This document shows, one piece after another, positions 4,322 through 20,025 of a DNA stretch of 64,000 bases. Under the pieces are notes generated by a model, which was not told where the DNA came from, ran no database searches, and worked only from the letters and a program-made list of their open reading frames with translations. The stretch spans positions 2,092,764 to 2,156,763 of the forward strand of contig NC_012997.1 in NCBI RefSeq assembly GCF_000023025.1, written 5' to 3'. Position numbers and translations under genes: made by a program. Origin of the DNA: Teredinibacter turnerae T7901 (GTDB lineage Bacteria; Pseudomonadota; Gammaproteobacteria; Pseudomonadales; Cellvibrionaceae). How positions within the stretch are numbered: the first letter of the stretch is position 1; each line of letters starts with the position of its first letter.

Positions 4322-4618
4322 TCACCCAGGCACACCATCGCAGACGATCATATTGCAATAGTGAGCGTTGTCTCTGCGCATCTGGTGAATCGGGGCGAGC
4401 TCCGCCGCTTCCAGCCAGGCGACCGCGGTAGCCCGATCGGGATATTCCATAACGACCATACGCGAGCTTTGCCAGCTCCCATCCAGTGTTTCTGGATTGC
4501 CGCCCCGTACCAAATAACGCCCGCCGTACTGAGTCACAGATGGTGTAATTGCAGCGATATACTTTTTATATTCGGTTTCATTTTTAATAGCGATATCGAC
4601 AATAATGTACGCGCTCAT
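4322..4618 (-). CDS. DUF1330 family protein
   Basis: A 98-residue protein of the DUF1330 (ferredoxin-like alpha/beta barrel) family: it starts MSAYIIVDIAI and contains GGRYLVRGG and VMEYPDRATAVAWLEA, the usual family blocks. Its ATG shares one base with the puuE stop codon (TAATG), so it is the second gene of a puuE operon. The biochemical role of DUF1330 is unknown. The tight coupling suggests an accessory step in allantoin/allantoate metabolism, which is inference only. Confidence 0.8.
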   Translation of the reverse strand: MSAYIIVDIAIKNETEYKKYIAAITPSVTQYGGRYLVRGGNPETLDGSWQSSRMVVMEYPDRATAVAWLEAAELAPIHQMRRDNAHYCNMIVCDGVPG

Positions 4619-5601
4619 TAAGGGGTAATCTCTGGGTAGAAATGGGTATGCCAGTGCTGTGCGATATCAATACGGCGGCAAATCCATACATCGTCGTGCT
4701 GCAGTATATGTTCAATAAAACGTTGCAGCGATTTCATTCGCGCTGGGCGGCCGACAATTCTGCAGTGCAAACCCACGTTCAGCATCTTCGGAGCACTGGC
4801 ACCTTCCTCATAGAGTACGTCGAACGCATCCCTTAAATAGGTAAAAAACTGATCGCCTGAATTAAATCCCTGCGGTGCGGCAAAGCGCATATCGTTAGTA
4901 TCCAGCGTATAGGGAATTACCAGGTGAGGCTGGCTTTCGGTATTCACCCAGTAGGGTAGGTCGTCGGCATAGCTGTCGGAATCGTATAGAAATCCTCCTG
5001 CCTCCAGTACCAGAGCGCGCGTGTTCGGGCTGTCGCGACCGGTGTACCAGCCTTGCGGACGCTTTCCCGTGACTTCGGTGTGCAGTCTAATCGCTTCGGC
5101 TATTTGCTCGCGCTCCTCATCAATTGGCATGAATTGATGATCTATCCAGCGCAAACCATGACTGGCAATTTCCCACTCGGCGTCTTTCATCGCCGCTACG
5201 GCGTCGGGGTTGCGTGCAAGCGCCATCGCTACACCGTATACCGTAACGGGCAGTTGATACTCGGTAAACAAGCGGTGCAGCCGCCAAAATCCGGCGCGGC
5301 TGCCGTATTCGTAAAGGGATTCCATACTCATGTGACGCGCGGGGTAGGCCCGGGCTCCAATAATTTCTGACAAAAATGTTTCTGAATTTTCGTCGCCGTG
5401 GAGCACACAATTTTCCGCCCCTTCCTCATAATTTATGACAAACTGCACCGCAATCTTGGCATTGTTGGGCCAGGGATTGGTGGGGGTTTGCGCACCGTAG
5501 CCAATAAGGTCGCGTGGATAGGGTGTCTGTTCTTTTACTATCTGCTCTGTCACTAAAGGTGCCTCTGCGATTAGAAAAATATTTTCGGCTGTCTGTATCA
5601 T
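4618..5601 (-). CDS. puuE: Allantoinase PuuE (polysaccharide deacetylase-like)
   Basis: A 327-residue member of the PuuE allantoinases, metal-independent analogues recruited from the polysaccharide deacetylase fold that open allantoin to allantoate. Diagnostic blocks are YPRDLIGYG, FVINYEEGAE with the downstream HGD, MSMESLYEYGSRAGFWR, EIASHGLRW and GWYTGRDSPNTR. The annotated ATG gives about 24 residues ahead of the conserved YPRDLIGYG start seen in most homologues; no better start lies between, so the extension may be real. It leads an operon with the DUF1330 gene and is divergent from the exported adenosine deaminase. Confidence 0.92.
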   Translation of the reverse strand: MIQTAENIFLIAEAPLVTEQIVKEQTPYPRDLIGYGAQTPTNPWPNNAKIAVQFVINYEEGAENCVLHGDENSETFLSEIIGARAYPARHMSMESLYEYGSRAGFWRLHRLFTEYQLPVTVYGVAMALARNPDAVAAMKDAEWEIASHGLRWIDHQFMPIDEEREQIAEAIRLHTEVTGKRPQGWYTGRDSPNTRALVLEAGGFLYDSDSYADDLPYWVNTESQPHLVIPYTLDTNDMRFAAPQGFNSGDQFFTYLRDAFDVLYEEGASAPKMLNVGLHCRIVGRPARMKSLQRFIEHILQHDDVWICRRIDIAQHWHTHFYPEITP

Positions 5602-5807: not shown

Positions 5808-7217
5808 ATGTACAAATTTTTTATTATTGCTCTGTTATTGGTAGGCAGCAGTGTTCGTGCCGAGGGAGACTGGTTCGAAAGCTTTAAAAAGACGGCGACC
5901 GACAAAGATCTGTACCATTTCCTGTATGCCATGCCTAAAGGCGGCGATTTGCACAACCACCTCAGCGGTGCCGGGTTTCCCGAGTGGTGGCTGGAACTGG
6001 CACTCGCACAGGAGAAGCGAGGCTATATTTATTACACCAAGATCAAAATCAATAATTGCGCAGGTTACGGCGGCAATGAATTTGGTGGTAACCCCTACTT
6101 GTTGTATTTCAAAAACATTCAGGAATCCACGTACAAGAAACTCTCGGCCTGCGAGCAGTCAGAGTACGTTCGCCTGCAGGATATGAGCGCAGAGCAAAAG
6201 GCTGGATGGCTTAATAGCCTTAAGTTGGATTCTGCGCATGAAGGGCGCGACGAATTTTTCCAAACTCACTGGCAGCGCTTGAACGAGCTATACATGAACC
6301 ACTATGTACTGGCGGAGATTCTCGTGCGCAATATGCAGGCTTTTGGCCGTGAAGGATTAATGTACCTGGAAATCGACTGCTCACCGGTGGGTATGCGTCC
6401 GGACGGCAGTTTGATTGACGCTGAAGAAGTGTACCGCTATTACAAAGAACGTCTTCAGCAGAAAGATGCTGTGGAATCTGGTGTAACAGTGAAGTTCCAA
6501 TACGCATTGTTGCGGTTCGCCCCCAACGCTGAAGAGCGGCTTGCGCAGATGTACGCGTTCGTCGATGCGCACCGGGATATGTATGTAGCCATTGATATGG
6601 TTGGCCGGGAAGACAACGATAAGGGGCACCCGCTGCGGTTTTTGCCAACATTGCGAAAATTGCGGGCGCAATACCCGGGCATTGATCTGTCCATTCACGC
6701 GGGAGAGGTGGACGAGCCCAACAAGCATATTCGTAACACACTGTTACTCGGTGCAAACCGGATAGGCCACGGCGTCAATTTACTTACTGATCCGGACACC
6801 TATCTATTGATGCGGCATAGCAATTATATGGTCGAAGTGAATCTCATCAGTAATTTATTGTTGGAATATGTGGACGATTACAGCAAGCATCCCTTCCCAG
6901 AGTTATTGCGCACAGATGTGCCGGTTGCCCTATCAACAGACGATCGTGGGATGTGGGACTCGAACCTGACAGATGAATTTTTTGTGGCTGTCAAGGAGTT
7001 CAATTTGTCCTGGAGTGAATTGCAAACGCTAGGGCTAAACTCGCTCAAATACGGATTTATGAATGACGAGCTAAAGACGAAATTGGTGCACGACTATCAG
7101 AAAAAAATGGATAAATTCGCCCAGCAGTTCCAAAAAGGTAGTCAGCGGGTATTGTCAAGTAAGCCGCCAATGCGAGGATTTATCTGTAATCACTACGAAT
7201 TGTGCTCTACGCCGTAG
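5808..7217 (+). CDS. Exported adenosine deaminase-family protein
   Basis: A 469-residue metal-dependent deaminase converting adenosine (or deoxyadenosine) to inosine. Metal and catalytic motifs are clear: GDLHNHLSG (HxH), SIHAGE (His and Glu), GANRIGHG and LSTDDRGM. It begins with a typical signal peptide (MYKFFIIALLLVGSSVRA), so it should act in the periplasm or outside, unlike cytoplasmic Add. It is about 100 residues longer than classic Add and resembles the longer secreted ADGF-type enzymes in layout. Divergent to puuE and upstream of the TonB receptor, it fits periplasmic trimming of nucleosides before uptake. Confidence 0.85.
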   Translation: MYKFFIIALLLVGSSVRAEGDWFESFKKTATDKDLYHFLYAMPKGGDLHNHLSGAGFPEWWLELALAQEKRGYIYYTKIKINNCAGYGGNEFGGNPYLLYFKNIQESTYKKLSACEQSEYVRLQDMSAEQKAGWLNSLKLDSAHEGRDEFFQTHWQRLNELYMNHYVLAEILVRNMQAFGREGLMYLEIDCSPVGMRPDGSLIDAEEVYRYYKERLQQKDAVESGVTVKFQYALLRFAPNAEERLAQMYAFVDAHRDMYVAIDMVGREDNDKGHPLRFLPTLRKLRAQYPGIDLSIHAGEVDEPNKHIRNTLLLGANRIGHGVNLLTDPDTYLLMRHSNYMVEVNLISNLLLEYVDDYSKHPFPELLRTDVPVALSTDDRGMWDSNLTDEFFVAVKEFNLSWSELQTLGLNSLKYGFMNDELKTKLVHDYQKKMDKFAQQFQKGSQRVLSSKPPMRGFICNHYELCSTP

Positions 7218-7276
7218 CGGGGCTTTAATTAATTTGGTGCACACATAAACGCTTGTTTTTAAAAAGCACTAACTTT

Positions 7277-7296
7277 GGGCCTGCGGGCCCTTTTTT
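7277..7296 (+). terminator. Rho-independent terminator after adenosine deaminase
   Basis: A GC-only stem (GGGCC / GGCCC, loop TGCG) is followed directly by six T residues, 60 bases after the adenosine deaminase stop. It should separate that gene from the TonB receptor. Confidence 0.8.
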
Positions 7297-7316
7297 ATGG
7301 TCGCTAAAAACGGATT

Positions 7317-7332
7317 TTGACCATTAGGTCAA
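7317..7332. promoter_or_regulatory. RutR-type operator, distal box of the TonB receptor
   Basis: TTGACCATTAGGTCAA differs from the RutR consensus (TTGACCA-NN-TGGTCAA) at one informative position. It lies about 160 bases upstream of the TonB receptor start and is one of two boxes there. The predicted binder is the TetR/RutR-like protein at 54523-55254. Confidence 0.7.
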
Positions 7333-7388
7333 CCAAGATAATTTTTAACTTATTGAAAATAAAGGAACTATTCTCGTTTTTTGAAAAC

Positions 7389-7404
7389 CTGACCATTTGG
7401 ACAG
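7389..7404. promoter_or_regulatory. RutR-type operator, proximal box of the TonB receptor
   Basis: CTGACCATTTGGACAG is a near-palindromic RutR-type box 89 bases upstream of the receptor ATG. Together with the box at 7317-7332 it makes a tandem arrangement, placing the receptor in the same predicted regulon as xanthine dehydrogenase. Confidence 0.7.
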
Positions 7405-7493
7405 CTTGTTGGCACACCGATTGCTCAAGCCCTTCCGGCTATGTACAGAGCCCGTTTTTTGGGCCGATTTATTTGACTTGGGGATAGTTGGAT

Positions 7494-9863
7494 ATGCACC
7501 AATTTAAGAAGAATTTTTTGTCGTGCGCGGTTAGCGCATCTTTGGGCGTTTTTGCGGTTCAGGCGACCTGGGCGCAAGAAGATGAAGCGGTCGAACTGGA
7601 AACCTATACCGCTGAGGGTGAAGTCGAGGACGATCTGGGCCTACTGCCTACTGAGCCTGTAGACTCAGTATTCGGGTTCGGCAAAACACTGTTGGAAACG
7701 CCTCGCGCGGTAAGTTCTATCAGCTCGGAAATGATTGACGGTCTCAATATTTCTGATATCGATGATCTGGTAGTGGCGTCACCTGGTGCCTTTACCCAAT
7801 CGTTCTTTGGCGTCGCCGGTGCACTGGATGTACGTGGCACCGCTGGTGAAGTTTATTTCCGCGGTATGCGTCGCCTGGACAACCCAGGTAACTACCCTAC
7901 ACCTTTGGGTGCGACAGACCGCATCGATATCGTCCGCGGTCCATCAACTCCGATTATGGGGCCATCTAAAATTGGTGGTTATATCAACTTTGTGCCTAAG
8001 TCTGCACGTGCGGAAACTGGGCAATACCTCGAGTCGCCAACAGGCGAAATTAAAGTAGAGCGCGGCAGTTGGGATCAAAACGTTCTTACTACCGAAGTCG
8101 GTGGTCCAGGTAAGATCGCGGGTAAAGGTTTTGGATATTATGCACTTTTCCAGACCGAGAATTCCGGCAGCTATTACGATAATACGCAGACCGACCAGAA
8201 TATTTTTCAGGCGTCTTTCAACCTCGACATTAACAGCGCGCACCGCCTTGAGTTCGGTGGTATGTACCACGAGTACGATGGTAACCAGGTAGCCGGCTGG
8301 AACCGCCTGAGTCAGGATCTGATCGACAATGGCACTTATGTGACGGGTAGTCCACAACCACTGGACACCAACGGCGATGGTCGTATCTCTCCCGCAGAAT
8401 ACGATGCGGCAGCAGGTTGTTGTGGTTATGGTATAGACACCGTTTTCCCAAGTGAAGTTACCACAGCAGATATTCCGGAAGGCATGGCGCTGGTGAACCC
8501 GGGTACCGCCAAACTCAAGCACAACCAGGTGTTGGTGTCTGAAGAGGATCAGCTGACTAACATAGCGTCGACCTTTTATCTGGATTATATCTTCGACAAA
8601 GGCAATGGCTTCTCGGTTACCAATAAAATTTTCTACGACGCGTACGACAACCTCAATGAAAACGCCTACGGGTTTTCTCAGTTTCATGACTCGTTTGTTA
8701 TCGAAGAAAAATTGATCGTCGATTACAAATTTAATACCAGCAATATGGAAGCGGGCATTCAGATTTCGCCCTCGGTTCGCCATACTGACTTCAAACACGG
8801 TGACGACTTCTTCTACGAGTATTTTGACCGCCGCGACATCACCCAACCTTCAACGCCTGTTGATAAGCTCGCGCTTGCCACTAACAGCCCAGACGGCGTA
8901 TGGGCAACTTATGTTATGGGTAATTACACCGACTCTGGTTTGGGTGTAATGGGCGATTTTAACTTTGATTTTGGTCTGAGTTTGACTGGTGGTGTTCGCT
9001 ACGACTCCATTGATATGTACGTCCATACTCCATCCGGCGACCGTGCAGAATCGACCGAGTCCGGTACTTCCTGGACCGGCAGTATCTCTTACAAAATTCC
9101 GATGTTGAACATTACGCCTTACTACACCCAGTCATCACAAATGACAATGATCGTGGGGCAGGGCGCGGAACTGGATTTGGGTAATGTTGAGGAAGGTAGT
9201 GCAATTGACGATTCCACACTGCAGGAATTGGGGATCAAAGGCAGTTTCTTTGACAACCGTTTGTACGCAGCTATCGCGTATTTTGAGCAGGATCGTACGG
9301 ATTACAGTGCGCAGTCTGCGACGACTAACGAGTCAGTCGAAACATCCGGCACTGAGTTTGAAATGCGCTGGTTAGTATCCGATAGTTTCTCCCTGACTGC
9401 GAATTACACTCAGATTGAAGTTGTGAATATTAACACCGAAGCGAGCGGTGGTCGTTGGACATTCCTTGGTGCAGAAGACTTACCTAATGTCGATCCAGGT
9501 GCGTTCTACGGCGGTACTGTGAGTGGGTTCGTGCTTGGTCCAGCTGAAAAAGCGGGTATCCCGGAGAACAGCTACAGCCTGGTCGCGCAATACAGCTTCT
9601 ACGACAACTGGTCTGCGGTGGTGAGTTATTTCCATGCGGATGAAACTGCGTCTGGCTTTACCGGTTCGGTCACCCTGCCTTCGTACGACTTATTTAACGC
9701 GGGTATTTCTTACTCGAACGATACCTGGGAAGTCGGAGCTAACTTCAAAAATATCACAGATGAAAAGTACTACCGCTCCAACTTCCCGAACCTGTTCGGA
9801 AGCTCGGTCGTATTGCCCGAAAAACCCTTCAGCTGGGAACTTTCTGCCACGTATAAATTTTAA
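7494..9863 (+). CDS. TonB-dependent outer-membrane receptor, probably for a purine-pathway substrate
   Basis: A 789-residue TonB-dependent transporter with a signal peptide (ending ATWAQ), a plug domain (from about residue 50, including VYFRGMRRLD and DRIDIVRGPS), and a 22-strand-type barrel ending in the expected aromatic ATYKF. The ATG at 7494, with GGGGATAG upstream, is preferred over an in-frame TTG six bases earlier. An EF-hand-like loop, DTNGDGRISPAE, sits at about 291-302 in an early barrel loop and could bind calcium. Two RutR-type boxes precede the gene and a complete Ton motor set follows, between purine genes. Import of purines, nucleosides or ureides is therefore inferred; the transported ligand is not readable from the barrel. 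Confidence 0.88.
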   Translation: MHQFKKNFLSCAVSASLGVFAVQATWAQEDEAVELETYTAEGEVEDDLGLLPTEPVDSVFGFGKTLLETPRAVSSISSEMIDGLNISDIDDLVVASPGAFTQSFFGVAGALDVRGTAGEVYFRGMRRLDNPGNYPTPLGATDRIDIVRGPSTPIMGPSKIGGYINFVPKSARAETGQYLESPTGEIKVERGSWDQNVLTTEVGGPGKIAGKGFGYYALFQTENSGSYYDNTQTDQNIFQASFNLDINSAHRLEFGGMYHEYDGNQVAGWNRLSQDLIDNGTYVTGSPQPLDTNGDGRISPAEYDAAAGCCGYGIDTVFPSEVTTADIPEGMALVNPGTAKLKHNQVLVSEEDQLTNIASTFYLDYIFDKGNGFSVTNKIFYDAYDNLNENAYGFSQFHDSFVIEEKLIVDYKFNTSNMEAGIQISPSVRHTDFKHGDDFFYEYFDRRDITQPSTPVDKLALATNSPDGVWATYVMGNYTDSGLGVMGDFNFDFGLSLTGGVRYDSIDMYVHTPSGDRAESTESGTSWTGSISYKIPMLNITPYYTQSSQMTMIVGQGAELDLGNVEEGSAIDDSTLQELGIKGSFFDNRLYAAIAYFEQDRTDYSAQSATTNESVETSGTEFEMRWLVSDSFSLTANYTQIEVVNINTEASGGRWTFLGAEDLPNVDPGAFYGGTVSGFVLGPAEKAGIPENSYSLVAQYSFYDNWSAVVSYFHADETASGFTGSVTLPSYDLFNAGISYSNDTWEVGANFKNITDEKYYRSNFPNLFGSSVVLPEKPFSWELSATYKF

Positions 9864-9879
9864 TACGTGAAACACATGC

Positions 9880-9897
9880 GGCGGTCTTTCGACCGCC
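9880..9897 (+). terminator. Stable hairpin between receptor and Ton genes
   Basis: GGCGGTC-TTTC-GACCGCC forms a perfect seven-pair stem with a tetraloop 16 bases after the receptor stop. No T-run follows, so it is either a weak or Rho-assisted terminator or an mRNA-stabilising hairpin that lowers expression of the downstream Ton genes. Confidence 0.45.
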
Positions 9898-9972
9898 GTG
9901 CTTCCCCAAAACCGTTTCTAATTTCCCGACTCTGTGTTGGGGTAGTCGATTTATTTTTGATTCGGAGAGATC

Positions 9973-10734
9973 ATGCCTAACCCGAAATTTTCCTGGAAGG
10001 CTTTGTGTCTGGCACTCGCGGTGCCGATGGTGGCTCATGCGCAGCAAACTACCATCGACAAGCAGGTTGCTTCAGATAAAGCTGCCGCCGCAAGCCAAGA
10101 GCGTATCAACAATTTGGATGATAAAAAGCAGGAAGCTTTTCAACGTTACCGTGCTGCGCTAGCGCGAGCAGAAAGCCTGGAAATATACAACCGTCAGTTA
10201 GCTCGTCTGGTGGAGTCCCAGGAGGGCGAAATCTCTTCGATTAAGCGGCAAACAGAAGAAATTGAAACGATAGAAACCGGTGCGCTCCCGTTAATGATTG
10301 AAATGACGGACGTGCTTACCAAGCTGGTGGAAGCCGATGTACCGTTTTTAATTCAAGAACGCCTGGATAGAGTTGAGAATCTTAAGTCCATGATTGATCG
10401 TGCCGACGTGACTGTGGGTGAAAAATACCGTCGTATTATGGAGGCTTACATGGTTGAAGCGGAATACGGACGCACCATTGAAGCTTACAGTGGCGAACTG
10501 GCGGAAGATGGCTCCAGTCGCACAGTCAGCTTCTTGCGCTTCGGCCGCGTGGGACTGTTTTATCAAACATTAGATGGCAGTGAAACCGGCCGGTGGAACT
10601 CCGCTGAAAATCACTGGGAAAAGCTTTCCGGGTCTGGTTACCGTAAAACTGTGAGGGATGGACTGCGGGTTGCCCGTAAACAGGCTCCGCCCTCGCTTCT
10701 TACCTTGCCTTTTAACACGCCGGAGGCCAACTGA
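9973..10734 (+). CDS. DUF3450 family periplasmic protein of a Ton system
   Basis: A 253-residue protein with an N-terminal signal peptide (ending VAHAQ), a long coiled-coil region (about residues 25-100) and a globular C-terminal half containing FLRFGRVGLFYQ. This is the DUF3450 layout, a family routinely encoded at the head of TonB2-type operons in Vibrio and alteromonads. It is preceded by a GGAGAG ribosome site and its stop overlaps the next ATG by one base (TGATG). Likely role: a periplasmic partner of the TtpC-like protein; the mechanism is not established. Confidence 0.8.
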   Translation: MPNPKFSWKALCLALAVPMVAHAQQTTIDKQVASDKAAAASQERINNLDDKKQEAFQRYRAALARAESLEIYNRQLARLVESQEGEISSIKRQTEEIETIETGALPLMIEMTDVLTKLVEADVPFLIQERLDRVENLKSMIDRADVTVGEKYRRIMEAYMVEAEYGRTIEAYSGELAEDGSSRTVSFLRFGRVGLFYQTLDGSETGRWNSAENHWEKLSGSGYRKTVRDGLRVARKQAPPSLLTLPFNTPEAN

Positions 10735-12086
10735 TGTTTAGAGCAATATGTATCGCCTTGCTGGCCATTCTGCCTGTGGTAACCCATGCGCAAGGCACCC
10801 AGTCATTGAAAGACTTGATGGATGAAGTCACCGCCAACGCCAGCGCTGAAGCCAAGCGCAACAAAGAACGCGAAGCCAAGTTTCGTGCTGCAGCTGGTGA
10901 ACAGGAATCCCTGATGGCTTCTGCCGAAGCAGAGGTCAAAAAGCAGGAAGCGCTGCGCGATTCTCTGCGTAAAACCTTTGATGAAAATGAGACTGCACTT
11001 GCAGAACTGCAAGATTTGCTGGACCGCCGCTCGGGCGATCTCGGTGAGCTATTTGGTGTGTTTCGCCAAACAGCAGATGATGCTGAGTCTATTATTTTCG
11101 CGTCGTTAATCAGCGCGGAAAAGCCAGAACGCAAAGCGATTGTGTCCGAATTGGCAGAAAGCTCAGAGATTCCATCGATTGATCAGATCCGTAGCTTGTG
11201 GCAGTTGCTGATTCAGGAAACGGCACTTTCTGGTGACCTGAGTCGTTTCAAACACGAAGTGATTGACCCGGATGGTACAACCTACGATGCAGACATCGTG
11301 CGCGTTGGTGCGTTTAACGTGGTTACGGGTGATAAGTACCTTAATTACCTCTCCGAAGACGGTACCCTGGTCGAGCTGGCTCGCCAACCGGCTGGCTACG
11401 CACGCAGCAGCGCTGACAAACTCACCTCTGCGGCTCCAGGCGCGGTGGTGGATTTTACGATTGACCCGTCACGCGGCGCGCTACTCGGTTTGTTAGTGCA
11501 ATCGCCAAGTCTTATGGAGCGAATTGAGCAGGGCGGTACGGTGGGCTATGCAATTATTATTGTGGGCATTATCGGAATGTTAATTGTATTGGAGCGTATG
11601 CTGAGTTTGATGCGCACCCGCAGCAAAATGCAACGCCAGCTAAAAAACCTTGATCAGGTAGAGGAAGACAACCCTATAGGTCGGGTAATGCAGGCTTATT
11701 TCGAACACCGCCACCTGGATCTGGAAACTATTTCCAGAAAAATGCAGGAAGTCATTATCCACGATATGGCGGGCATTCGCCGTGGGCTTTCGATTGTTAA
11801 GGTGCTCGCAGCCGTCGCACCGCTAATGGGGCTGTTGGGTACGGTGGTCGGTATGATCGGCACATTCCAAGCCATCACCCTGTTTGGTACCGGTGATCCT
11901 AAACTGATGGCTGGCGGTATTTCGCAGGCGCTTATCACTACGGTGCTGGGTTTGTGCGCAGCGATTCCTTTGTTGCTGAGCCACAGTATGCTGGCTGCAC
12001 GAGCAACCCAAATCGGAAAAATGATTAGTGAACAAGCCGCTGGTTTGATGGCGAAAAAAGCGGAAGCCGACGCGAAAGGAGCCTGA
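10734..12086 (+). CDS. Large MotA/TolQ/ExbB proton-channel protein (TtpC-like)
   Basis: 450 residues: a signal peptide (ending VVTHAQ), a periplasmic alanine/glutamate-rich coiled coil to about residue 100, a globular segment, then the MotA/TolQ/ExbB domain from about residue 265, with a first membrane segment (VGYAIIIVGIIGMLIVLE), a cytoplasmic loop and two further membrane segments (VAPLMGLLGTVVGMIGTFQ; QALITTVLGLCAAIPLLL). This long architecture matches TtpC, the extra component required by TonB2 systems in Vibrio. It sits between DUF3450 and a short ExbB, as in those operons. It should help transduce proton-motive force to TonB. Confidence 0.88.
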   Translation: MFRAICIALLAILPVVTHAQGTQSLKDLMDEVTANASAEAKRNKEREAKFRAAAGEQESLMASAEAEVKKQEALRDSLRKTFDENETALAELQDLLDRRSGDLGELFGVFRQTADDAESIIFASLISAEKPERKAIVSELAESSEIPSIDQIRSLWQLLIQETALSGDLSRFKHEVIDPDGTTYDADIVRVGAFNVVTGDKYLNYLSEDGTLVELARQPAGYARSSADKLTSAAPGAVVDFTIDPSRGALLGLLVQSPSLMERIEQGGTVGYAIIIVGIIGMLIVLERMLSLMRTRSKMQRQLKNLDQVEEDNPIGRVMQAYFEHRHLDLETISRKMQEVIIHDMAGIRRGLSIVKVLAAVAPLMGLLGTVVGMIGTFQAITLFGTGDPKLMAGGISQALITTVLGLCAAIPLLLSHSMLAARATQIGKMISEQAAGLMAKKAEADAKGA

Positions 12087-12088
12087 TC

Positions 12089-12601
12089 ATGGGACTTCTG
12101 CCAATGTTTCAGGATTTTATGGATAAGGGTGGCAACGTATTGTGGGCCATCCTGTTCATGGCGATTTGGCTGTGGTGGATGATTCTAGAGCGCTACTGGT
12201 ATTTTTTTGCAGAGCATAAGCTTGGCAAAAAAGCGTGTATCAGTACCTGGGAAGCCAGAGACGAGTACACGTCCTGGTACGCCGACCGCGAACGTGCTCA
12301 GCTTATTTCCGAAGTTGATTGCTCAATGCTGAAAAACCTTAAGATGATACCGACGCTGATCGCGCTTCTGCCCATGTTTGGCCTATTGGGTACCGTAACC
12401 GGGATGATTCAGGTATTCGATGTTATGGCATTTATGGGTTCTGGTAACCCGCGAGCAATGGCGAATGGGGTGAGTGCTGCCACCATTCCTACCATGGCGG
12501 GCATGGTGGTTGCGCTTATTGCAATCCCGTTCGCCACGGGGTTGGATCGCCGCTACAAACGAGAACTACGTCTGTTAAAAACAGCGCTTAAACAACATTA
12601 G
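12089..12601 (+). CDS. exbB: ExbB-like proton channel subunit
   Basis: A 170-residue MotA/TolQ/ExbB protein of normal short length, with three membrane segments: VLWAILFMAIWLWWMILE, the conserved LLPMFGLLGTVTGMIQVF, and TIPTMAGMVVALIAIPFATG. It starts two bases after the upstream stop. It forms the inner-membrane motor with ExbD that energises TonB. Confidence 0.92.
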   Translation: MGLLPMFQDFMDKGGNVLWAILFMAIWLWWMILERYWYFFAEHKLGKKACISTWEARDEYTSWYADRERAQLISEVDCSMLKNLKMIPTLIALLPMFGLLGTVTGMIQVFDVMAFMGSGNPRAMANGVSAATIPTMAGMVVALIAIPFATGLDRRYKRELRLLKTALKQH

Positions 12602-12609
12602 GACTTTGT

Positions 12610-13020
12610 ATGTCTGATTCAGAATTTTTAATCGACGAAGAAGAAGAGAGCCAGATCGATTTGACGCCTATGCTCGATGTGGTTTTCATCATGCTCATCT
12701 TTTTTATTGTGACCTCCACATTCGTCAAAGAAGCCGGTGTTGATGTAAGCAGACCCAATGCAGAAACCGCGGTGGTTGCCAAGTCGAATGCCATCCAGAT
12801 AGGTATAACGGCGAATAACCAGATATTTATGGACAAGCGTCTGGTAGACAAGCGTGCAGTGCGAGCGAACGTCGAACGAGGTTTGGCGGAAAACCCGGGT
12901 GCCGCGGTGATTATTGTCGCGGATTCGGACTCCAAAACCGAAACTCTGATTGAAGTGATGGATCAGGCGCGAATGGCGGGCGCGGAAAGTGTGTCTGTCG
13001 CAGCCGAGGGAGGCCAGTAA
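12610..13020 (+). CDS. exbD: ExbD/TolR-like motor subunit
   Basis: A 136-residue ExbD/TolR protein with a short cytoplasmic N-terminus, the conserved DLTPMLDVVFIMLIFFIV membrane segment carrying the proton-relay Asp, and a periplasmic domain (VIIVADSDSKTETLIEVMDQARMAG). An AGGA ribosome site precedes the ATG. It works with the adjacent ExbB proteins. Confidence 0.93.
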   Translation: MSDSEFLIDEEEESQIDLTPMLDVVFIMLIFFIVTSTFVKEAGVDVSRPNAETAVVAKSNAIQIGITANNQIFMDKRLVDKRAVRANVERGLAENPGAAVIIVADSDSKTETLIEVMDQARMAGAESVSVAAEGGQ

Positions 13021-13023
13021 TTG

Positions 13024-13677
13024 ATGGCCACCACTGCTGCAAATCCCGCCCTTAAAGGGCTAAGTATTTCGGTTTTGGCAGTCGCCATTGGTCTGCTTAT
13101 TTTCCTGTTGATGCACGTATTAATCCGCCCGGGAAGCGAATTGGAAAAACTGGATGGCCAGCAAACGTATTTGAATTTCGTGCGTGTTGACAATAGCGAT
13201 GATGACTTGCAAACCAAAAAGCGCAAACCACCGAAGGAGCCACCACCACCGGAAACGCCACCAGAAACACCGGAAATGAACCAGCAGATGACGGATATTA
13301 ATCCGAATCTCAATATGAATATGCCCAGTATCGGAGTACCTATTAATTCTGGGGACGGGCCATTCTTAGGTGCCTTGAGTCAGGGTGATGGTCTCGCCGG
13401 GTTTGATACTGATGTGATTCCAGTCGTGCGAGTGCCGCCGACGTATCCGCGTGCGGCCAAGCAGGCGAAGATACAAGGCTACGTTACCATGGCGGTTACG
13501 ATTAACCCGGACGGAACCGTTTCTGATGCCGAAGTTCTGGAAGCTGAGCCTCCACGGTTGTTCGATCAGGCGGCCATAGCTGCAATCAAACGCTGGAAAT
13601 TTCGACCCAAAATTGTCGATGGTATGCCGAAGGCTCAACGGGCAAAGCAAACGATCGAATTTAAACTGAGCCGCTAA
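13024..13677 (+). CDS. tonB: TonB energy transducer
   Basis: A 217-residue TonB. It has a single N-terminal membrane anchor (about 12-36, SISVLAVAIGLLIFLLMHVL), a short Lys-Pro/Glu-Pro spacer (KKRKPPKEPPPPETPPETPE) and a C-terminal TonB domain (PPTYPRAAKQAKIQGYV... RWKFRP). The ATG at 13024, ten bases after GGAGG, is preferred over the in-frame TTG just before it. The short spacer is typical of TonB2-class proteins. It links the ExbBD/TtpC-like motor to outer-membrane receptors, most obviously the one encoded just upstream. Confidence 0.92.
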   Translation: MATTAANPALKGLSISVLAVAIGLLIFLLMHVLIRPGSELEKLDGQQTYLNFVRVDNSDDDLQTKKRKPPKEPPPPETPPETPEMNQQMTDINPNLNMNMPSIGVPINSGDGPFLGALSQGDGLAGFDTDVIPVVRVPPTYPRAAKQAKIQGYVTMAVTINPDGTVSDAEVLEAEPPRLFDQAAIAAIKRWKFRPKIVDGMPKAQRAKQTIEFKLSR

Positions 13678-13691
13678 CGAGGAGGAGAGCG

Positions 13692-14918
13692 ATGCGTGTA
13701 TTTCGAATTCTAGTCTCGCTGGTGATGCTGCTGTGTTGCAGCTACAGTTGGAGTGCGGGCTCGGTAAGCGGAAAAGTATTTAAAGAGCTGACCGATATTC
13801 AAACGGTGATGGGAGAGGGCAAGACTGAAGAAGCTTACACCCGATTACAAACTTTGTTGGCAGAGGTGGACGACAATTCCTTAGATAAAGCGCTAACTTT
13901 GCAAACCCTGGGGTATGTGGAAATGGCGCGAGAAAATTTTCAGCAAGCCATCGGTTACCTTAAGCAAAGTCTTGCGTTAAACCAGTTGCCCGAAAAAGTG
14001 GTTATTAACGTGGGGTACATGGTTGCGCAACTTCACGCGGCGCTTGGCGAGTATGATCAGGCGCTGGAATTTGCAGAGGACTGGTACACACAGCTTGAAA
14101 CACCGAAGCCGACGGAATCGATTTTCCTTGCCAATATATATGCGCAGATGAAGCGCTATGAAGAAGCGATTCCCTATGCGGAAAAGGCCATTGGCGATTC
14201 CGATAAACCCAAGGAAACCTGGTATCAGTTACTTACAGCAAGCTTTTTTGAGTTGAAGCGGTATCCCAAAGCTGCGAAGAGCTTACAGCAGATGGTCGAA
14301 CACTGGCCGGACAAGGCGACCTATTGGGAGCAGCTCGCCAGCGTATATGTGATGTTGGAAGATGAGCAGTCGGCGTTGGCGGTCTTGAAGCTCGCGTTTC
14401 AGCAAAAGCTACTCGATAAAGAATCCACGATTAAATCGCTGCTGCAATTAGCTGTGACCCGTGGAATTCCCGAGCACGCAGCGCGTATGTTGGAGCAGGC
14501 GTTTGCCGACGAGATGCTGGAGGAAAATGCGACCTTTTTGGAAATGCTGGCTGCCGCTTACGCAGCAGCAAGAGAGCGGGAAAAGGCAATTCTGGCGTAT
14601 GAGCGACTCGCTCCGATGAGTGAAACCGGCGATCCGTGGATTTCCATCTCAAATATTTACGTTGAAATGGGAGAGTGGAAACAGGCAGAAACCGCGCTAA
14701 AAAAAGCACTGGATGCAAAACTGGAATCGCCAGGCAAGGCGTGGTTGTTGTTAGGCATTGCGCAAATGGAACTGAAAAAATTCGATTCAGCCAAGAACTC
14801 GTTGCGTAAATCCGTTGCTTTCAAAGAAACCACTAAATCGGCGAATCGCTGGATGAAATATGTGGACGATATGAAACGGCAGGCTGACTGGATGGCGGAA
14901 GTTAAAGCCAATAGCTAG
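13692..14918 (+). CDS. Secreted TPR protein of the Ton operon
   Basis: A 408-residue protein with a signal peptide (ending SYSWSAG) followed by tetratricopeptide-type repeats across most of its length (for example YLKQSLALNQLP, ANIYAQMKRYEEAIPYAEKAI, ISNIYVEMGEWKQAETALKKAL). A strong GAGGAGG ribosome site precedes the ATG, 14 bases after tonB. TPR proteins close TonB2-type operons in marine gammaproteobacteria and probably scaffold the periplasmic side; the function is unproven. Confidence 0.85.
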   Translation: MRVFRILVSLVMLLCCSYSWSAGSVSGKVFKELTDIQTVMGEGKTEEAYTRLQTLLAEVDDNSLDKALTLQTLGYVEMARENFQQAIGYLKQSLALNQLPEKVVINVGYMVAQLHAALGEYDQALEFAEDWYTQLETPKPTESIFLANIYAQMKRYEEAIPYAEKAIGDSDKPKETWYQLLTASFFELKRYPKAAKSLQQMVEHWPDKATYWEQLASVYVMLEDEQSALAVLKLAFQQKLLDKESTIKSLLQLAVTRGIPEHAARMLEQAFADEMLEENATFLEMLAAAYAAAREREKAILAYERLAPMSETGDPWISISNIYVEMGEWKQAETALKKALDAKLESPGKAWLLLGIAQMELKKFDSAKNSLRKSVAFKETTKSANRWMKYVDDMKRQADWMAEVKANS

Positions 14919-15169: not shown

Positions 15170-16258
15170 ATGTTCAATAAAAGATTGATTGGCATATTTG
15201 CATTTTGTAGCTGGCTTTGCAGTTGCGCGTCTAGCCCGATGGACTCGGGTGTAACCATCACGCAGACGCCAATACCAGTTAAGGTGGTCGTTGTCTCGAT
15301 GTTCGAAATCGGTGACGACGAGGGCGATACTGCCGGCGAGTTTCAACTTTGGAAAGAGAGAATGGATCTGGATACCCGGTTCGCCTTTCCAAATTCACAC
15401 CACGATATTTACATGAATATGGACAAAGGTGTGATGGGGATTGTTACTGGTATGGGAACCGCCAAATCCACGTCAGCGATTATGGCGCTAGGGCTCGATC
15501 CACGGTTTGATTTCTCTAAAGCTTACTGGCTGGTAGCGGGGATTGCCGGTATCGACCCGGAAGATGCATCGATTGGTTCTGCGGCTTGGGCGGAGCACTT
15601 GATTGATGGCGATCTCGCCCACGAAATTGATTCGCGTGAGATGCCCAAAGACTGGAAACACGGGTATTTCCCGCTATTTAGCAAGAGCGCTACACCGATG
15701 ACGGCTTACCAGGAGCCGTTCAATGGCGAAATGTATACGCTGAATCTCTCGTTGGTCGACTGGGCCTACGAGTTGACCAAAGACACCGTTTTACCCGATA
15801 TGCCCTCGCTTGAGGAAACGCGCAAACTTTATGTGAACCACCCTAAGGCTCAGCAAAAGGCGGTGGTAATGAAAGGGGATCAATTGGCCGCGATGACATT
15901 TTGGCACGGCGCGATGATGAATGACTGGGCCAACGATTGGGTGAGTTATTGGACGAAAGGTCAGGGCGAGTTTGTGACATCGGCGATGGAAGATACAGGT
16001 ACCTATTTGTCGCTCAGCTATCTGGATAACATTGGTCGTGTGGATCTCGACCGTTACCTCGTATTGCGTACCGGGAGTAATTTCACCATGCCCCCTCCTG
16101 GTATCACCGCTGCGCAAAATCTGATGGCGGAGAATGAAGGTTATGCCGGGTTACAGGCTGCTCTTGAGTCCGCTTATTTGGTGGGAAGCAAAGTGGTGAA
16201 TGCGCTTCTGGCTGACTGGGGCACCTACGAAACTACATTGCCTGGTTCTGGCAATTAA
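15170..16258 (+). CDS. Exported purine nucleoside permease (NUP) family protein, copy 1
   Basis: A 362-residue NUP-family protein. The N-terminus has a hydrophobic signal ending in a lipobox-like LCSC (Cys 19), so it may be a lipoprotein; no further membrane segments are seen. Conserved blocks GIVTGMGTAKST, WLVAGIAGIDPEDASIGSAAW and TSAMEDTGTYLS recall the nucleoside phosphorylase/nucleosidase fold (glycine-rich GMG, AGIAG, and an MED motif where MTA/PNP enzymes have MEx). The family name comes from nucleoside transport, but an exported soluble protein is more easily a periplasmic nucleoside-cleaving or -binding protein. It lies alone between the Ton genes and hpxW and has a paralogue at 56645-57706. 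Confidence 0.8.
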   Translation: MFNKRLIGIFAFCSWLCSCASSPMDSGVTITQTPIPVKVVVVSMFEIGDDEGDTAGEFQLWKERMDLDTRFAFPNSHHDIYMNMDKGVMGIVTGMGTAKSTSAIMALGLDPRFDFSKAYWLVAGIAGIDPEDASIGSAAWAEHLIDGDLAHEIDSREMPKDWKHGYFPLFSKSATPMTAYQEPFNGEMYTLNLSLVDWAYELTKDTVLPDMPSLEETRKLYVNHPKAQQKAVVMKGDQLAAMTFWHGAMMNDWANDWVSYWTKGQGEFVTSAMEDTGTYLSLSYLDNIGRVDLDRYLVLRTGSNFTMPPPGITAAQNLMAENEGYAGLQAALESAYLVGSKVVNALLADWGTYETTLPGSGN

Positions 16259-16293: not shown

Positions 16294-17895
16294 GTGACTG
16301 ATTACGCCTTTACTGCACCGCATGCAGTCGCTGCTGATGTCGGTTATAACATGCTTGCAAATGGGGCTAACGCAGTCGATGCCATGATTGCAGCAGCAGC
16401 GGCTATCACGGTTGCCTACCCACATATGAATTCAATCGGCGGCGATAGCTTCTGGTTGATCAGCCCTCCAGGAGCCAGCCCCATCGCCATCGATGGGGCT
16501 GGCGTGTGTTTGCAAAGTCTATCTTCAGAAACCTTCTCGGGTAAATTGCCCAGCCGCGGAGCGGGTGCATGTATCACTTTGCCGGGCACTGTTGCGGCCT
16601 GGCGATGCGCCCGTGAAGCTGTTGCACGCGTTTCCAGCAGAGCGCCCAGAGAGCTTCACGCGTTGTTAAAGCCTGCAGTATCGCTAGCCAGTGAAGGCGT
16701 TACAGTGACCGAATCTCTCAAAGCTGCGTGTGCAAAACTCGCAGGTGAATTGTTACCAAGTGAACGAACTTCAGATACCTATGGCGAGCTGGACCGCTTG
16801 TTTTTGCATCCGGTTCTGACACAGCGTGTTCAAACTATCTGTAACCCTGCTTTGGCGGCGACATTTTCCCAGCTGGCTGATGCCGGGCTCGATGACTTTT
16901 ATCGGGGAGATTTGGCAAAGACGATTTGCAGGGATGCCCAAGCGCTGGGTATTTCGGTCGTTGCAGACGATTTTTCCGGGTTTGCGGCCAACGAATGCCA
17001 AGTTCTCAATACAGCGTTACGTTCGGCACAGCTCTACAATTTGCCAGCGCCGACCCAGGGCGTAGCATCCCTGATGATCTTGGCCCTTTACGATCGCCTG
17101 TGCACTCCGGATTTAAGTGAGGAGGAATCGGTTCACCTGTTGGTGGAGGCCACAAAGCTGGCGTTTCGCTACCGAGATGCCGTGGTCGCTGACCCGAAAG
17201 TCGCAGCCGGTGCGGAGGCCAAGCTGCTGGCCCCCGAGTTTCTTGATGATCTTGCCCGCGGGATAAAAGAGACTGCGGCGCCTTGGCCTCACCCTGGCAA
17301 TCCAGGTGATACCGTTTGGATGGGCTGTGTAGACGCTGATGGTGTGATGGTGAGCTTTATTCAAAGCATCTATTGGGAGTTCGGTTCTGGTGTGGTGTTA
17401 CCGGGTTCCGGGATCGTCTGGAATAACCGCGGCTGCAGTTTTTCTCTGGATGCGACACACCCAAATGTTCTCGCACCGGGTAAAAAGCCTTTCCACACCC
17501 TTAACCCCGCTTACGCCGAATTTTCTGATGGTCGCCGTATGGTATACGGCACTATGGGGGGAGAGGGGCAGCCGCAAACACAAGCCGCGCTGTTTTCCCG
17601 CTACGCCTATGGCGGCGAGCCGCTGGTGAAGGCTATTGCAGACGACCGCTGGCTGCTGGGGCGCACCTGGGGTGAGAGCTCAACCGATCTGAAAATTGAG
17701 CCCGAACTGGGCGCCCGCATTGCCAGTTCGCTCACAAGTCGTGGCCACAAGGTAAACGTCTTATCCGCGAAATCGGAATCGATGGGGCATGCGGGTGCCA
17801 TAGTATTGCAGTCCGACGAGCAAGGCAGCGCATTGGCAGCGACGGACCCCCGTAGTGATGGTGCTGCGTATTCAAGCTCAACCACCGTAGACTGA
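16294..17895 (+). CDS. hpxW: Oxamate amidohydrolase, gamma-glutamyltranspeptidase-like (HpxW)
   Basis: A 533-residue Ntn-hydrolase of the gamma-glutamyltranspeptidase family without a signal peptide, so cytoplasmic. It starts GTG at 16294 with the family opening YAFTAPHAVAADVG and LANGANAVDA. The probable autoprocessing nucleophile is Thr about 340 in GDTVWMG. Family blocks SIGGDSFW, GSGIVWNNRG and TMGGEGQPQTQ are present. The cytoplasmic location, the GDTVWMG site and neighbours (ureidoglycine aminotransferase, allantoate amidohydrolase) match HpxW of Klebsiella, which hydrolyses oxamate to oxalate and ammonia. It probably forms an operon with the TauE, aminotransferase and amidohydrolase genes that follow (gaps 14-42 bases). 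Confidence 0.82.
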   Translation: MTDYAFTAPHAVAADVGYNMLANGANAVDAMIAAAAAITVAYPHMNSIGGDSFWLISPPGASPIAIDGAGVCLQSLSSETFSGKLPSRGAGACITLPGTVAAWRCAREAVARVSSRAPRELHALLKPAVSLASEGVTVTESLKAACAKLAGELLPSERTSDTYGELDRLFLHPVLTQRVQTICNPALAATFSQLADAGLDDFYRGDLAKTICRDAQALGISVVADDFSGFAANECQVLNTALRSAQLYNLPAPTQGVASLMILALYDRLCTPDLSEEESVHLLVEATKLAFRYRDAVVADPKVAAGAEAKLLAPEFLDDLARGIKETAAPWPHPGNPGDTVWMGCVDADGVMVSFIQSIYWEFGSGVVLPGSGIVWNNRGCSFSLDATHPNVLAPGKKPFHTLNPAYAEFSDGRRMVYGTMGGEGQPQTQAALFSRYAYGGEPLVKAIADDRWLLGRTWGESSTDLKIEPELGARIASSLTSRGHKVNVLSAKSESMGHAGAIVLQSDEQGSALAATDPRSDGAAYSSSTTVD

Positions 17896-17923
17896 ATTAT
17901 CGCTAAACAAAGCAGGAAATTGT

Positions 17924-18742
17924 GTGACTGAATGGCTTCCTATTATTGCCGCGTTGATTGCAACCGGTGCGTTGGCGGGTTTGCTCGCTGGGCTTTTGGG
18001 TGTAGGCGGGGGCATTGTTATCGTGCCAGTGCTTTACTTTATTTTTCAGTTAATTGGTATTTCCGCCGCTACCGCAATGACCGTCGCCACTGGCACCTCG
18101 CTGCTCATTATTATTCCCACGAGTGTTTCCTCCATTCGCGCCCACCACAAGCGCGGTAACATTGACAGCCAACTGGTAAGATTGTGGTGGCCGTTTATTG
18201 TTCTTGGGGTTGTCTTGGGTGTCGTTTTCGCGACTGAAGCGGGAGGCCAGGTTGCCGCAATTATTTTCGGTATCGTCGCGATTCTTGTCGCTGCCAATAT
18301 GATGTTCCGCGCAAATGCGCAGCCCCTGTTTTCCAGTCTGCCTGGCAAACTCTGGCAATCGGTGATCGCTGCAGTCATTGGCCTTGTGTCTGTGGTTATG
18401 GGGATAGGGGGCGGTACACTGGGTGTGCCCACCCTGTCTGCGTGTAATTTTCCAGCACATCGCGCTGTTGGCACCGCAGCAGTATTCGGTTTTATTATTG
18501 CCTTGCCCGGTGCTGCACTTTTATTAGTGTATGGCAGCACCCCACCAGACGCGCCGCTGGGAACAATCGGTGTCGTTAACCTGTTAGGCTTTGCGGTGAT
18601 AGTGCCCTTGACGGTACTCATGGCACCGGTAGGCGTGAAGCTGGGTGCGATGCTCAACGACGTTTTGTTAAAGCGGACTTTTGCTGTGTTTCTTTGTCTC
18701 AGCGGAGCGCGCATGGTTTATCAGGCCGTACTCGCCAGTTAA
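17924..18742 (+). CDS. TauE/SafE family membrane exporter in the ureide operon
   Basis: A 272-residue polytopic membrane protein of the TauE/SafE (sulfite exporter) family, with two half-repeats each carrying a glycine-rich turn (GLLGVGGGIVIVPVL near the start and MGIGGGTLGVPTL near residue 165). GTG start at 17924 preceded by AGGAAA. Members export organic or inorganic anions. Placed between oxamate amidohydrolase and the aminotransferase, it is a candidate exporter of a pathway anion such as oxalate; that substrate is inference. Confidence 0.85.
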   Translation: MTEWLPIIAALIATGALAGLLAGLLGVGGGIVIVPVLYFIFQLIGISAATAMTVATGTSLLIIIPTSVSSIRAHHKRGNIDSQLVRLWWPFIVLGVVLGVVFATEAGGQVAAIIFGIVAILVAANMMFRANAQPLFSSLPGKLWQSVIAAVIGLVSVVMGIGGGTLGVPTLSACNFPAHRAVGTAAVFGFIIALPGAALLLVYGSTPPDAPLGTIGVVNLLGFAVIVPLTVLMAPVGVKLGAMLNDVLLKRTFAVFLCLSGARMVYQAVLAS

Positions 18743-18756
18743 TTTTAGGGTTTGCT

Positions 18757-19983
18757 ATGTCGGATTATTTGCACGAAAGTTTTCTGCCTCCACCACGTTT
18801 GCTTATGGGCCCAGGCCCGATTAATTGTGATCCCCGCGTTTTGCGTGCAATGTCGTATCAACTGGTCGGTCAGTTTGATCCGGCAATGACTCGCTGCATG
18901 ACAGAAACCATGGCGCTTTATCGGGGAGTATTTAAAACCAAAAACCCCTGGACTTTTATTGTCGACAGTACGGCACGCGGTGGGATTGAGGCCGCGATGG
19001 TGTCCCTTTTGAATCCCGGCGATAAAGTGGTGGTTCCGGTCTTTGGGCGTTTCGGGCTGTTGCTTAAAGAGATCGCAGAGCGATGCGGAGCTTTAGTTCA
19101 TACGTTGGATCTTGAGTGGGGACAAGTGGCGCAGCCAGAACAAATCGAAGCGGCAATTCATAGGTTCAACCCCAAATTAGTTGCCCTGGTACAAGGCGAC
19201 ACTTCCACCACCATGTGCCAGCCCCTGGCCGATATTGGGCCGATGTGTTTTGACATGGGCGTACTGACGTATTGTGACGCTACTGCTTCGCTTGGTGGCA
19301 ACGACTTTCGTACCGATGAATGGAAAATATCAGCGGTTACAGCAGGGTTGCAGAAGTGTTTGTCAGGGCCTTCCGGTAGCGCCCCCATAACCTTGAGTTC
19401 ACAGGCAGTGGACGAAATTAATAAGCGCCGCCATGTGGAAGCGGGTATAAAAGCGGCACATCACACCGAGGCCACAGGTTCGCGGATAAGCTCGAACTAT
19501 TTTGATCTGGCGATGATCATGGATTATTGGGGGGAAGAACGGCTTAACCACCATACGGAGGCCACCAGCATGCTCTATGGAGCCCGCGAGTGCGCGCGTA
19601 TTTTGCTGGAGGAGGGGGTCGACAATACTGTCGCGCGTCACAAGCAAAATGGCGATGCCCTTGCTGCAGGATTGCGCGCGATGGGGTTAACCCTTTACGG
19701 TGAGCAATCCCAGCGGATGAATAATGTTGTTGGAGTCTATATTCCTGAACAGGTTAATGGTGACCGGGTACGCCAACAAATGCTGGAGGATTTCGGTATC
19801 GAAATTGGCACTTCTTTTGGTCCGCTACATGGTGTGATTTGGCGGATCGGCACAATGGGATACAACGCTCGGAGAAGCGCAGTGTTGCAAACACTGGCTT
19901 CCCTGGAGCAATGCCTGCTGCTCAACGGCCTTAAATTACCCGCCGGTGCTGCGGTGCGTCAGGCGCTATCGGTTTACCAATAA
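18757..19983 (+). CDS. pucG: (S)-ureidoglycine-glyoxylate aminotransferase
   Basis: A 408-residue class V PLP aminotransferase of the PucG/HpxJ group, transferring the amino group of ureidoglycine to glyoxylate and giving oxalurate and glycine. It opens with PPRLLMGPGP and has the Schiff-base lysine in GLQKCLSGPSGSAPIT and the cofactor Asp in YCDATASLGG. The ATG at 18757 with AGGG six bases upstream is preferred to an earlier in-frame ATG that would overlap the TauE gene by 49 bases. Its neighbours make the ureidoglycine role more likely than serine- or alanine-glyoxylate transamination. Confidence 0.87.
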   Translation: MSDYLHESFLPPPRLLMGPGPINCDPRVLRAMSYQLVGQFDPAMTRCMTETMALYRGVFKTKNPWTFIVDSTARGGIEAAMVSLLNPGDKVVVPVFGRFGLLLKEIAERCGALVHTLDLEWGQVAQPEQIEAAIHRFNPKLVALVQGDTSTTMCQPLADIGPMCFDMGVLTYCDATASLGGNDFRTDEWKISAVTAGLQKCLSGPSGSAPITLSSQAVDEINKRRHVEAGIKAAHHTEATGSRISSNYFDLAMIMDYWGEERLNHHTEATSMLYGARECARILLEEGVDNTVARHKQNGDALAAGLRAMGLTLYGEQSQRMNNVVGVYIPEQVNGDRVRQQMLEDFGIEIGTSFGPLHGVIWRIGTMGYNARRSAVLQTLASLEQCLLLNGLKLPAGAAVRQALSVYQ

Positions 19984-20025
19984 TGCAGCAGAGCTTCGTA
20001 TCTGTGGCTGGGGTAGTCAACAACA

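Follow-up and report, generated by a model that had tools for sequence, protein, structure and literature searches.

Our results suggest that Teredinibacter turnerae T7901 carries a TonB-dependent system for scavenging purines, most likely nucleosides, which would have a motor of its own and stand under RutR-family control; we consider this probable. The system lies in a 64-kb stretch of DNA (the window), positions 2,092,764-2,156,763 of the single 5,193,164-bp contig that formed the searched genome, and is built around a gene for a TonB-dependent receptor. A preliminary description of this DNA had reported a TonB receptor behind two RutR-type boxes, followed by DUF3450, TtpC-like, ExbB, ExbD, TonB and TPR genes, and Pfam scans and a box search recovered each of these in place (Table 1). 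It had also named the flanks correctly: Pfam identified an adenosine deaminase (ADA)-family protein, a NUP-family protein and then ureide genes, and a crude test gave export-like starts for the first two.

We propose the following route. The RutR-family regulator, probably answering a purine intermediate, would control the receptor together with the xanthine dehydrogenase, phosphoribosyltransferase-NUP and permease genes, as their upstream sites suggest. At the cell surface the receptor would bind purine nucleosides (adenosine, inosine and guanosine), or less probably free bases, and deliver them to the periplasm, with energy from the adjacent TonB3-type motor (TtpB, TtpC, ExbB, ExbD, TonB, TtpD), whose TonB would match the unusual putative TonB box of the receptor. 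In the periplasm the exported ADA-family enzyme would deaminate the nucleosides and the exported NUP enzyme would split them. The bases would then enter through the Xan_ur permeases and be broken down by xanthine dehydrogenase, urate oxidase and the products of the ureide genes.

Linkage of the receptor to purine genes

The linkage of the receptor to purine genes is well supported by comparison across genomes. Two overlapping sets were used: a family sample of 100 genomes, our own included, in which about 50% identity or more defined an orthologue; and 79 public loci, obtained from the best 80 of 323 receptor relatives in GTDB species genomes, of which several end at contig ends and five come from genomes shared with the family sample. 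Only neighbours that matched window proteins by blastp were labelled, and a core purine family was counted at 30% identity or more within about 10 kb. In what follows, L-numbers denote stretches of DNA around loci and G-numbers genomes.

At least one core purine family was present in 72 of the 79 public loci, and at least three families in 58. These loci span Alteromonadaceae, Colwelliaceae, Pseudoalteromonadaceae, Echinimonadaceae, Cellvibrionaceae, Microbulbiferaceae, Oceanospirillaceae, Nevskiaceae, Ectothiorhodospiraceae and unclassified genomes. NUP1 was the most frequent neighbour (63 loci), followed by ADA-like proteins (52, weak matches included), permease 2 (42), permease 1 (40), PuuE (27), the regulator (20), XdhA (11) and the motor (7). 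The gene next to the receptor was a NUP gene on the same strand in 54/79 loci and ttpB in 7/79. As a control, we took loci around other receptors of the T. turnerae genome (20 of 34 other receptor places listed, covering 23 of them), and none of these 20 had a core purine match. Among neighbours labelled, as said, by their match to window proteins, the orthologues did not prove consistently linked to iron or carbohydrate genes, the outcome that the preliminary description had named as a refutation.

In the family sample, 13/100 genomes carry a receptor orthologue, and 10 of the 12 orthologues outside our own genome have purine genes in the 20 kb around them. Seven of these (G023, G012, G084, G064, G060, G033 and G020) are surrounded by PuuE, ADA, motor and NUP genes; in G090 the same genes occur without the motor; G042 has a permease and G018 a permease and an amidohydrolase. 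G015 and G006 showed no purine gene in the 20 kb read, but in G006 the remnant of a NUP gene lies some 1.7 kb from the receptor. Moreover, NUP was present in 13/13 receptor-positive versus 6/87 receptor-negative family genomes, and full-length Urate_ox_N (E below 1e-100) in 13/13 versus 16/87, with short weak matches only in 22 further genomes. Fisher tests on these tables, and on the box-motor table below, ignore phylogeny. Conserved linkage and co-occurrence of the receptor with purine genes were thus observed. Across the class the receptor is rare: at 1e-40 it was detected in 2/368 other genomes, once in a purine locus (L203 of G447) and once as a partial match (G184).

Some more distant relatives were also encountered. 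L054:8784-11432, in G012, encodes a receptor paralogue (31% identity) with a motor-like TonB box, beside a RutR-like regulator, NUP2, phosphoribosyltransferase and permease 2 genes; it may use the motor in trans. L051, L052 and L053 hold paired distant receptor relatives beside tandem amidase runs, and in L051 and L052 ExbB, ExbD, TonB and TtpD genes adjoin the pairs.

RutR-type boxes and the regulator

That the receptor is under the same switch as the purine-breakdown genes is well supported by the position of the RutR-type boxes. With at most one mismatch, YTGACCANNTGGTCAR occurs at five places in the 5.19-Mb genome, and the window contains three of these (58377, 7317 and 7389). With at most two mismatches there are 79 sites, of which eight fall in the window versus 0.97 expected if they were evenly spread. 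Six of the eight are upstream of genes of the proposed system: 7317 and 7389 (receptor), 54290 (xdhA), 54453 (regulator), 58377 (phosphoribosyltransferase-NUP2) and 58660 (permease 2). The other two, 51030 and 60480, lie inside genes.

The box is conserved among relatives. In the interval between 250 bp before the gene and 30 bp into it, at up to two mismatches, we found it before 39/81 receptors of relatives (27 at no more than one mismatch), while 30 shuffles gave a mean of 0.4 and a maximum of 2. In the same loci it precedes xdhA in 10/11 cases, permease 2 in 22/42, ADA in 20/44, permease 1 in 10/40, the regulator in 8/20 and PuuE in 3/27; it was not found before NUP1 (0/66), GGT (0/25), Amidohyd2 (0/16), NUP2 (0/11) or phosphoribosyltransferase (0/3). 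Together with the locus, control and NUP counts, this agrees with the earlier proposal of a receptor that sits in a purine locus and is co-regulated with it. About the same place before the Colwellia-type receptors of L074, L079, L093, L124 and L125 we noted another palindrome, of the TTGACACTTGAGTCAA type, which is perhaps the trace of a diverged regulator.

The regulator is the sole TetR_C_3 protein encoded in the genome. It matches RutR structures at 5.9e-38 and scores under both RutR equivalog cut-offs (181.3 bits versus 368 for TIGR03613, and 157.8 versus 230). By these scores it is a RutR-family paralogue, not RutR. Since no RutA over its cut-off was found in the genome, with three weak matches only, the regulator is unlikely to serve a Rut pathway.

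Exported enzymes and the candidate ligand

Because the exported ADA-family and NUP proteins adjoin the receptor, nucleosides are the first-choice ligand; these closest neighbours favour them over ureides, urate and free bases. Among the relatives, the crude export test gave export-like starts for 40/43 ADA-family proteins, 61/64 NUP1 proteins (39 with a lipobox-like motif) and 11/11 NUP2 proteins, compared with 1/27 PuuE, 1/10 XdhA and 0/22 M20 proteins. NUP1 is a probable purine nucleoside-splitting enzyme; a search by sequence for a solved relative of NUP found none. In L072 and L040 a PNP_UDP_1 protein lies between the receptor or motor and NUP. Two Colwellia-type loci encode exported-looking proteins of 320-340 aa with no Pfam match (L074:8730-9701 and L079:7252-8271), near the receptor and ADA or permease genes.

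The Ton motor

The preliminary description had seen a dedicated TonB2-type complex here. A complex does adjoin the receptor, but it is a known module of the TonB3/Ttp type and no part of the conserved core, present in 7/79 public loci and with 7/12 family orthologues. TtpB, TtpC and TtpD are listed in all seven family motor loci; the gene picker skips ExbB/ExbD in L040 and TonB in L042 and L044, where an overlapping frame was kept. In L063 TonB was not detected.

The gene order, ttpB-ttpC-exbB-exbD-tonB-ttpD with the receptor gene first, is that given for TonB3 in the accessible part of PMC6957404, according to which the TonB3 operon of Vibrio vulnificus starts with a receptor gene, the TonB2 operon does not, and the TonB3 type occurs in Teredinibacter. 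Of the three DUF3450 clusters in the T. turnerae genome, the one at 3.58 Mb is weaker than the two strong ones, and the other strong cluster (L036) follows lgt-thyA-folA, with no receptor first. We therefore take the window cluster as the T. turnerae TonB3, and its tonB is probably the tonB3 of PMC10734418. In the accessible text of that paper, neither iron limitation nor cellulose medium prevented growth of the tonB3 mutant, tonB3 was unable to substitute for tonB1b or tonB2, none of the tonB genes was clearly regulated by iron and the function of TonB3 was stated to be unknown; the word 'purine' is absent from its main text. If the motor is tonB3, these phenotypes would fit a dedicated role outside iron and cellulose.

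TtpC was detected at 1e-30 in 76/368 other genomes of the class, and no window purine protein was matched in any of the 19 stretches around TtpC matches of this sample. Since Ttp motors are common and these 19 loci lack a purine match, the motor is a known module and not a mark of purines in itself; the idea of Ttp motors as purine motors in general was rejected. In other genomes, Ttp motors adjoin unrelated receptors.

Between the receptor and motor genes lies a G+C-rich hairpin (Table 1). A strong hairpin was seen by eye between receptor and ttpB in 9/14 motor loci, and it may set the receptor-to-motor ratio. Elsewhere in the T. turnerae genome, L037 (3,573,001-3,588,000) has DUF3450, TtpC-like and ExbD genes beside an adenosine deaminase gene, with TonB not detected, and in L144 (2,824,501-2,844,500) TtpC- and ExbD-like matches lie close to a receptor whose N-terminus is unusual.

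Correlation between TonB box and motor

We compared the TonB boxes of 90 receptor rows, which share ancestry, using patterns written after viewing the sequences. A VELETYTAEG-type stretch is conserved where relatives have a canonical TonB box. All 14 motor-linked receptors have the VELETYTAEG-like form and none the canonical one; the motor form is absent from the 76 receptors without a motor in the locus, of which 72 are canonical. The remaining four match neither: L113 (wrong start), L121 (truncated), L129 (near-canonical) and the outgroup paralogue L054, which reads ELEDFVVED, a stretch similar to the motor form, in a genome that does carry the motor. On the receptor tree, built by a quick method with Shimodaira-Hasegawa-like approximate likelihood ratio support only, the motor label requires 4 changes; shuffling gave a mean of 13.2, with 0/500 as low. 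Two Cellvibrio receptors, L072 and L131, come from loci that lack a motor and nest among the motor receptors; their boxes, VEETLVVGD or VEETLVIGD, are canonical. This lineage seems to have lost the motor, and on this tree its switch is the one clear independent event of a box-motor change.

The motor-form box was found in 0/23 other receptors examined in the T. turnerae genome. The receptors of Ttp motors inspected elsewhere in the class have canonical-looking boxes, both beside TtpB (L188, L190, L195, L197 and L202) and one gene away (L201), and a divergent box as a general mark of Ttp coupling was rejected.

The box-motor split suggests, without proving, a private recognition code. We tentatively extend this, while leaning somewhat against it, to a private energy circuit: the TonB3-type TonB and a receptor matched to it by its own TonB-box code would work apart from the general TonBs, the loss of the motor in Cellvibrio would have brought a return to the general code, and the NUP lipoprotein could be a nucleoside-cleaving partner at the outer membrane.

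The receptor protein

Pfam plug and beta-barrel domains and matches to structures of TonB-dependent transporters place the receptor in this class. The Pfam TonB_dep_Rec and Plug matches belong to the frame 7488-9863, in which the ATG at 7494 is the likelier start. The AlphaFold2 model is moderate (mean predicted local distance difference test score 74) and poor in the plug, so the ligand pocket was not read from it. Foldseek returned the general fold of these transporters only, at 9-15% identity in the 50 structure matches listed. An EF-hand-like loop, D-x-N-G-D-G-x-x-S-x-x-E, occurs at about residues 291-302, with most positions invariant or nearly so in sets of 13 and 41 aligned receptors; calcium may have a part in ligand binding.

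Fur control of the receptor was rejected: the best Fur-like site in 7218-7500 agrees at 12/19 positions, which 15% of 300 random window pieces equal. A sigma-70 scan of 7218-7520 gave 0 promoter-like sites.

Weighing the alternatives

Several observations count against a purine scavenging system with its own motor and a shared switch. Nucleosides are small enough for porins. The export test was also positive for aminotransferases (11/21) and GGT-like proteins (14/24), and is thus not specific, and the ADA-family protein matches adenosine deaminases and ADGF below their curated NCBIfam cut-offs. Over the whole genome, box-like sites are not in excess (79 versus 112 for a reversed control pattern), so the enrichment of the box is one of place, and at two mismatches the box is absent from 42/81 receptor upstream regions. 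Most loci are without the motor; no box precedes ttpB, which lies 109 bp from the receptor gene with a hairpin in between, and co-transcription of the motor with the receptor is therefore a supposition. Among the matches listed, the nearest solved relatives of the receptor are siderophore receptors (FpvA, PiuA, FptA and FhuA type), and seven of the 79 loci (L073, L078, L081, L086, L113, L123 and L132) have no core purine gene in the DNA examined, L132 having late-pathway purine genes.

Scarce or bulky ligands are the best-known cargo of TonB-dependent receptors, and the ligand here could instead be a larger purine-bearing molecule (a nucleotide, NAD, an oligonucleotide or a nucleic-acid fragment), cut by exported enzymes during or after entry. 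The exported nucleoside-acting enzymes beside the receptor would finish such a degradation; however, Pfam scans of window genes near the receptor revealed neither a nuclease nor a nucleotidase, the relatives not having been searched systematically, and we regard a larger ligand as unlikely. Less likely again is import of a metal chelate (iron, molybdate or haem-like) for xanthine dehydrogenase or urate oxidase, with the receptor co-regulated for that reason. Xanthine dehydrogenase needs molybdenum and iron-sulphur clusters, and the siderophore receptors just named would suit such a ligand, although the modelled fold does not by itself decide the ligand. Against a chelate speak the chance-level Fur match, conserved neighbours that are NUP and ADA rather than metal genes and, if the motor is tonB3, its loss without an iron phenotype in the accessible text of PMC10734418. 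That the receptor serves an unrelated nutrient and merely sits in a purine island is in our judgement very improbable: the seven loci without a core purine gene and the pairing of Ttp motors with other receptors elsewhere fit it, but linkage across several bacterial families, the shared upstream box and the co-occurrence do not, and even the apparently unlinked receptor of G006 has its NUP remnant nearby.

Other features of the window

The rest of the purine pathway lies at 46-60 kb of the window and had been missed by the preliminary description (regulator, xdhAB, xdhC, deaminases, urate oxidase, NUP2 and permease 2). The window also encodes a second TonB-dependent receptor (35596-38019) with a carboxypeptidase-regulatory-like N-terminal domain, unrelated to the purine receptor in the comparisons made.

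Table 1. Coordinates of the proposed purine scavenging system and associated genes in the 64-kb window.
Feature	Position	Strand	Evidence or remark
AtzE-family amidase	380-1771		Over its NCBIfam cut-off
Xan_ur permease 1	2710-4137	+	Pfam
Polysaccharide deacetylase-fold protein, presumably PuuE-like	4618-5601	-	Pfam
Exported ADA/ADGF-family protein (A_deaminase)	5808-7217	+	Pfam; signal-peptide-like start; substrate inferred
RutR-type box 1 before receptor	7317-7332	+	TTGACCATTAGGTCAA; 0 mismatches to TTGACCANNNGGTCAA, 1 to YTGACCANNTGGTCAR
RutR-type box 2 before receptor	7389-7404	+	CTGACCATTTGGACAG; shares the form CTGACCANNTGGACAR with the box before many receptor relatives
TonB-dependent receptor	7494-9863	+	Pfam plug and barrel; putative divergent TonB box VELETYTAEG near N-terminus
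G+C-rich hairpin between receptor and motor genes	9879-9898	+	z -2.25 for 9864-9972
DUF3450 protein (TtpB type)	9973-10734	+	Pfam 1.1e-91
TtpC-type protein	10734-12086	+	Pfam; MotA_ExbB domain, long N-part with weak DUF3450 match
ExbB (MotA_ExbB)	12089-12601	+	Pfam
ExbD	12610-13020	+	Pfam
TonB (TonB_C)	13021-13677	+	Pfam; probable tonB3
TPR protein (TtpD type)	13692-14918	+	Pfam
Exported, lipoprotein-like NUP-family protein (NUP1)	15170-16258	+	Pfam 5.8e-116
GGT-like (presumably HpxW-like), TauE, aminotransferase V and M20 allantoate-hydrolase-like genes	16294-21282	+	Pfam
Urate oxidase, guanine deaminase, OHCU decarboxylase, XdhC, XdhB, XdhA	46130-54218	-	Guanine deaminase over its curated NCBIfam cut-off
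RutR-family (TetR_C_3) regulator	54487-55254	+	Only one in the genome
8-oxoguanine deaminase	55273-56622	+	Over curated cut-off
Second NUP (NUP2) and phosphoribosyltransferase	56645-58298	-	
RutR-type box upstream of phosphoribosyltransferase-NUP2	58377-58392		0 mismatches to YTGACCANNTGGTCAR
RutR-type box upstream of permease 2	58660-58675		
Xan_ur permease 2	58722-60017	+	

Relation to known systems

TonB-dependent gates are better known for iron and vitamins, and porins or Tsx-type channels are generally taken to be the route of purines and nucleosides through the outer membrane. The T. turnerae locus resembles polysaccharide utilisation loci, and the TonB-linked nucleoside/ribose loci that exist in Bacteroides, in uniting an energised receptor, exported enzymes, an inner-membrane permease and a regulator. 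It differs from them in having no SusD-type gene near the receptor (no SusD Pfam match was found among the window proteins scanned, and the NUP lipoprotein is not a SusD), in its siderophore-receptor-like receptor and in the purine catabolism genes that follow. The receptor shares the barrel-plug fold with FpvA, PiuA, FptA and FhuA, from which its low identity and its purine neighbours set it apart. With the hpx, puc and puu purine catabolism clusters the locus has in common xdh, OHCU decarboxylase, allantoate and AtzE-type amidohydrolases and deaminases; here, however, these genes share a locus with a TonB-dependent receptor and a Ton motor. The regulator family and the type of box recall Escherichia coli RutR, whose consensus is TTGACCANNTGGTCAA, but the equivalog scores, the lack of a RutA over its cut-off and the predicted targets, purine genes and a TonB-dependent receptor, differ.

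The closest counterparts of the motor are TonB3 of V. vulnificus and the TonB2/TonB3 clusters of T. turnerae (accessible parts of PMC6957404 and PMC10734418), with receptor, ttpB, ttpC, exbB, exbD, tonB and ttpD; the likeness to Vibrio is one of gene order. In those texts TonB3 has no ligand or nutrient assigned, whereas here the receptor and its neighbours indicate purines. We found no report of a TonB-dependent purine receptor in the open-licence PMC literature, in searches of which several were mainly off-topic and which do not exclude work in subscription journals; the words 'TonB', 'purine', 'uric' and 'xanthine' are absent from the accessible main text of PMC2699552.

If the proposed system is real, a group of mostly marine Gammaproteobacteria would capture dissolved nucleosides with an energised receptor, which would bear on marine nitrogen cycling and, in T. 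turnerae, a symbiont of wood-eating shipworms, on how host purines are recycled. It would also give one TonB3-type system a ligand that can be tested, and the choice of receptors by TonB proteins could be studied in a natural experiment. Finally, should the private circuit hold, TonB3 systems without a known function would be dedicated nutrient motors.

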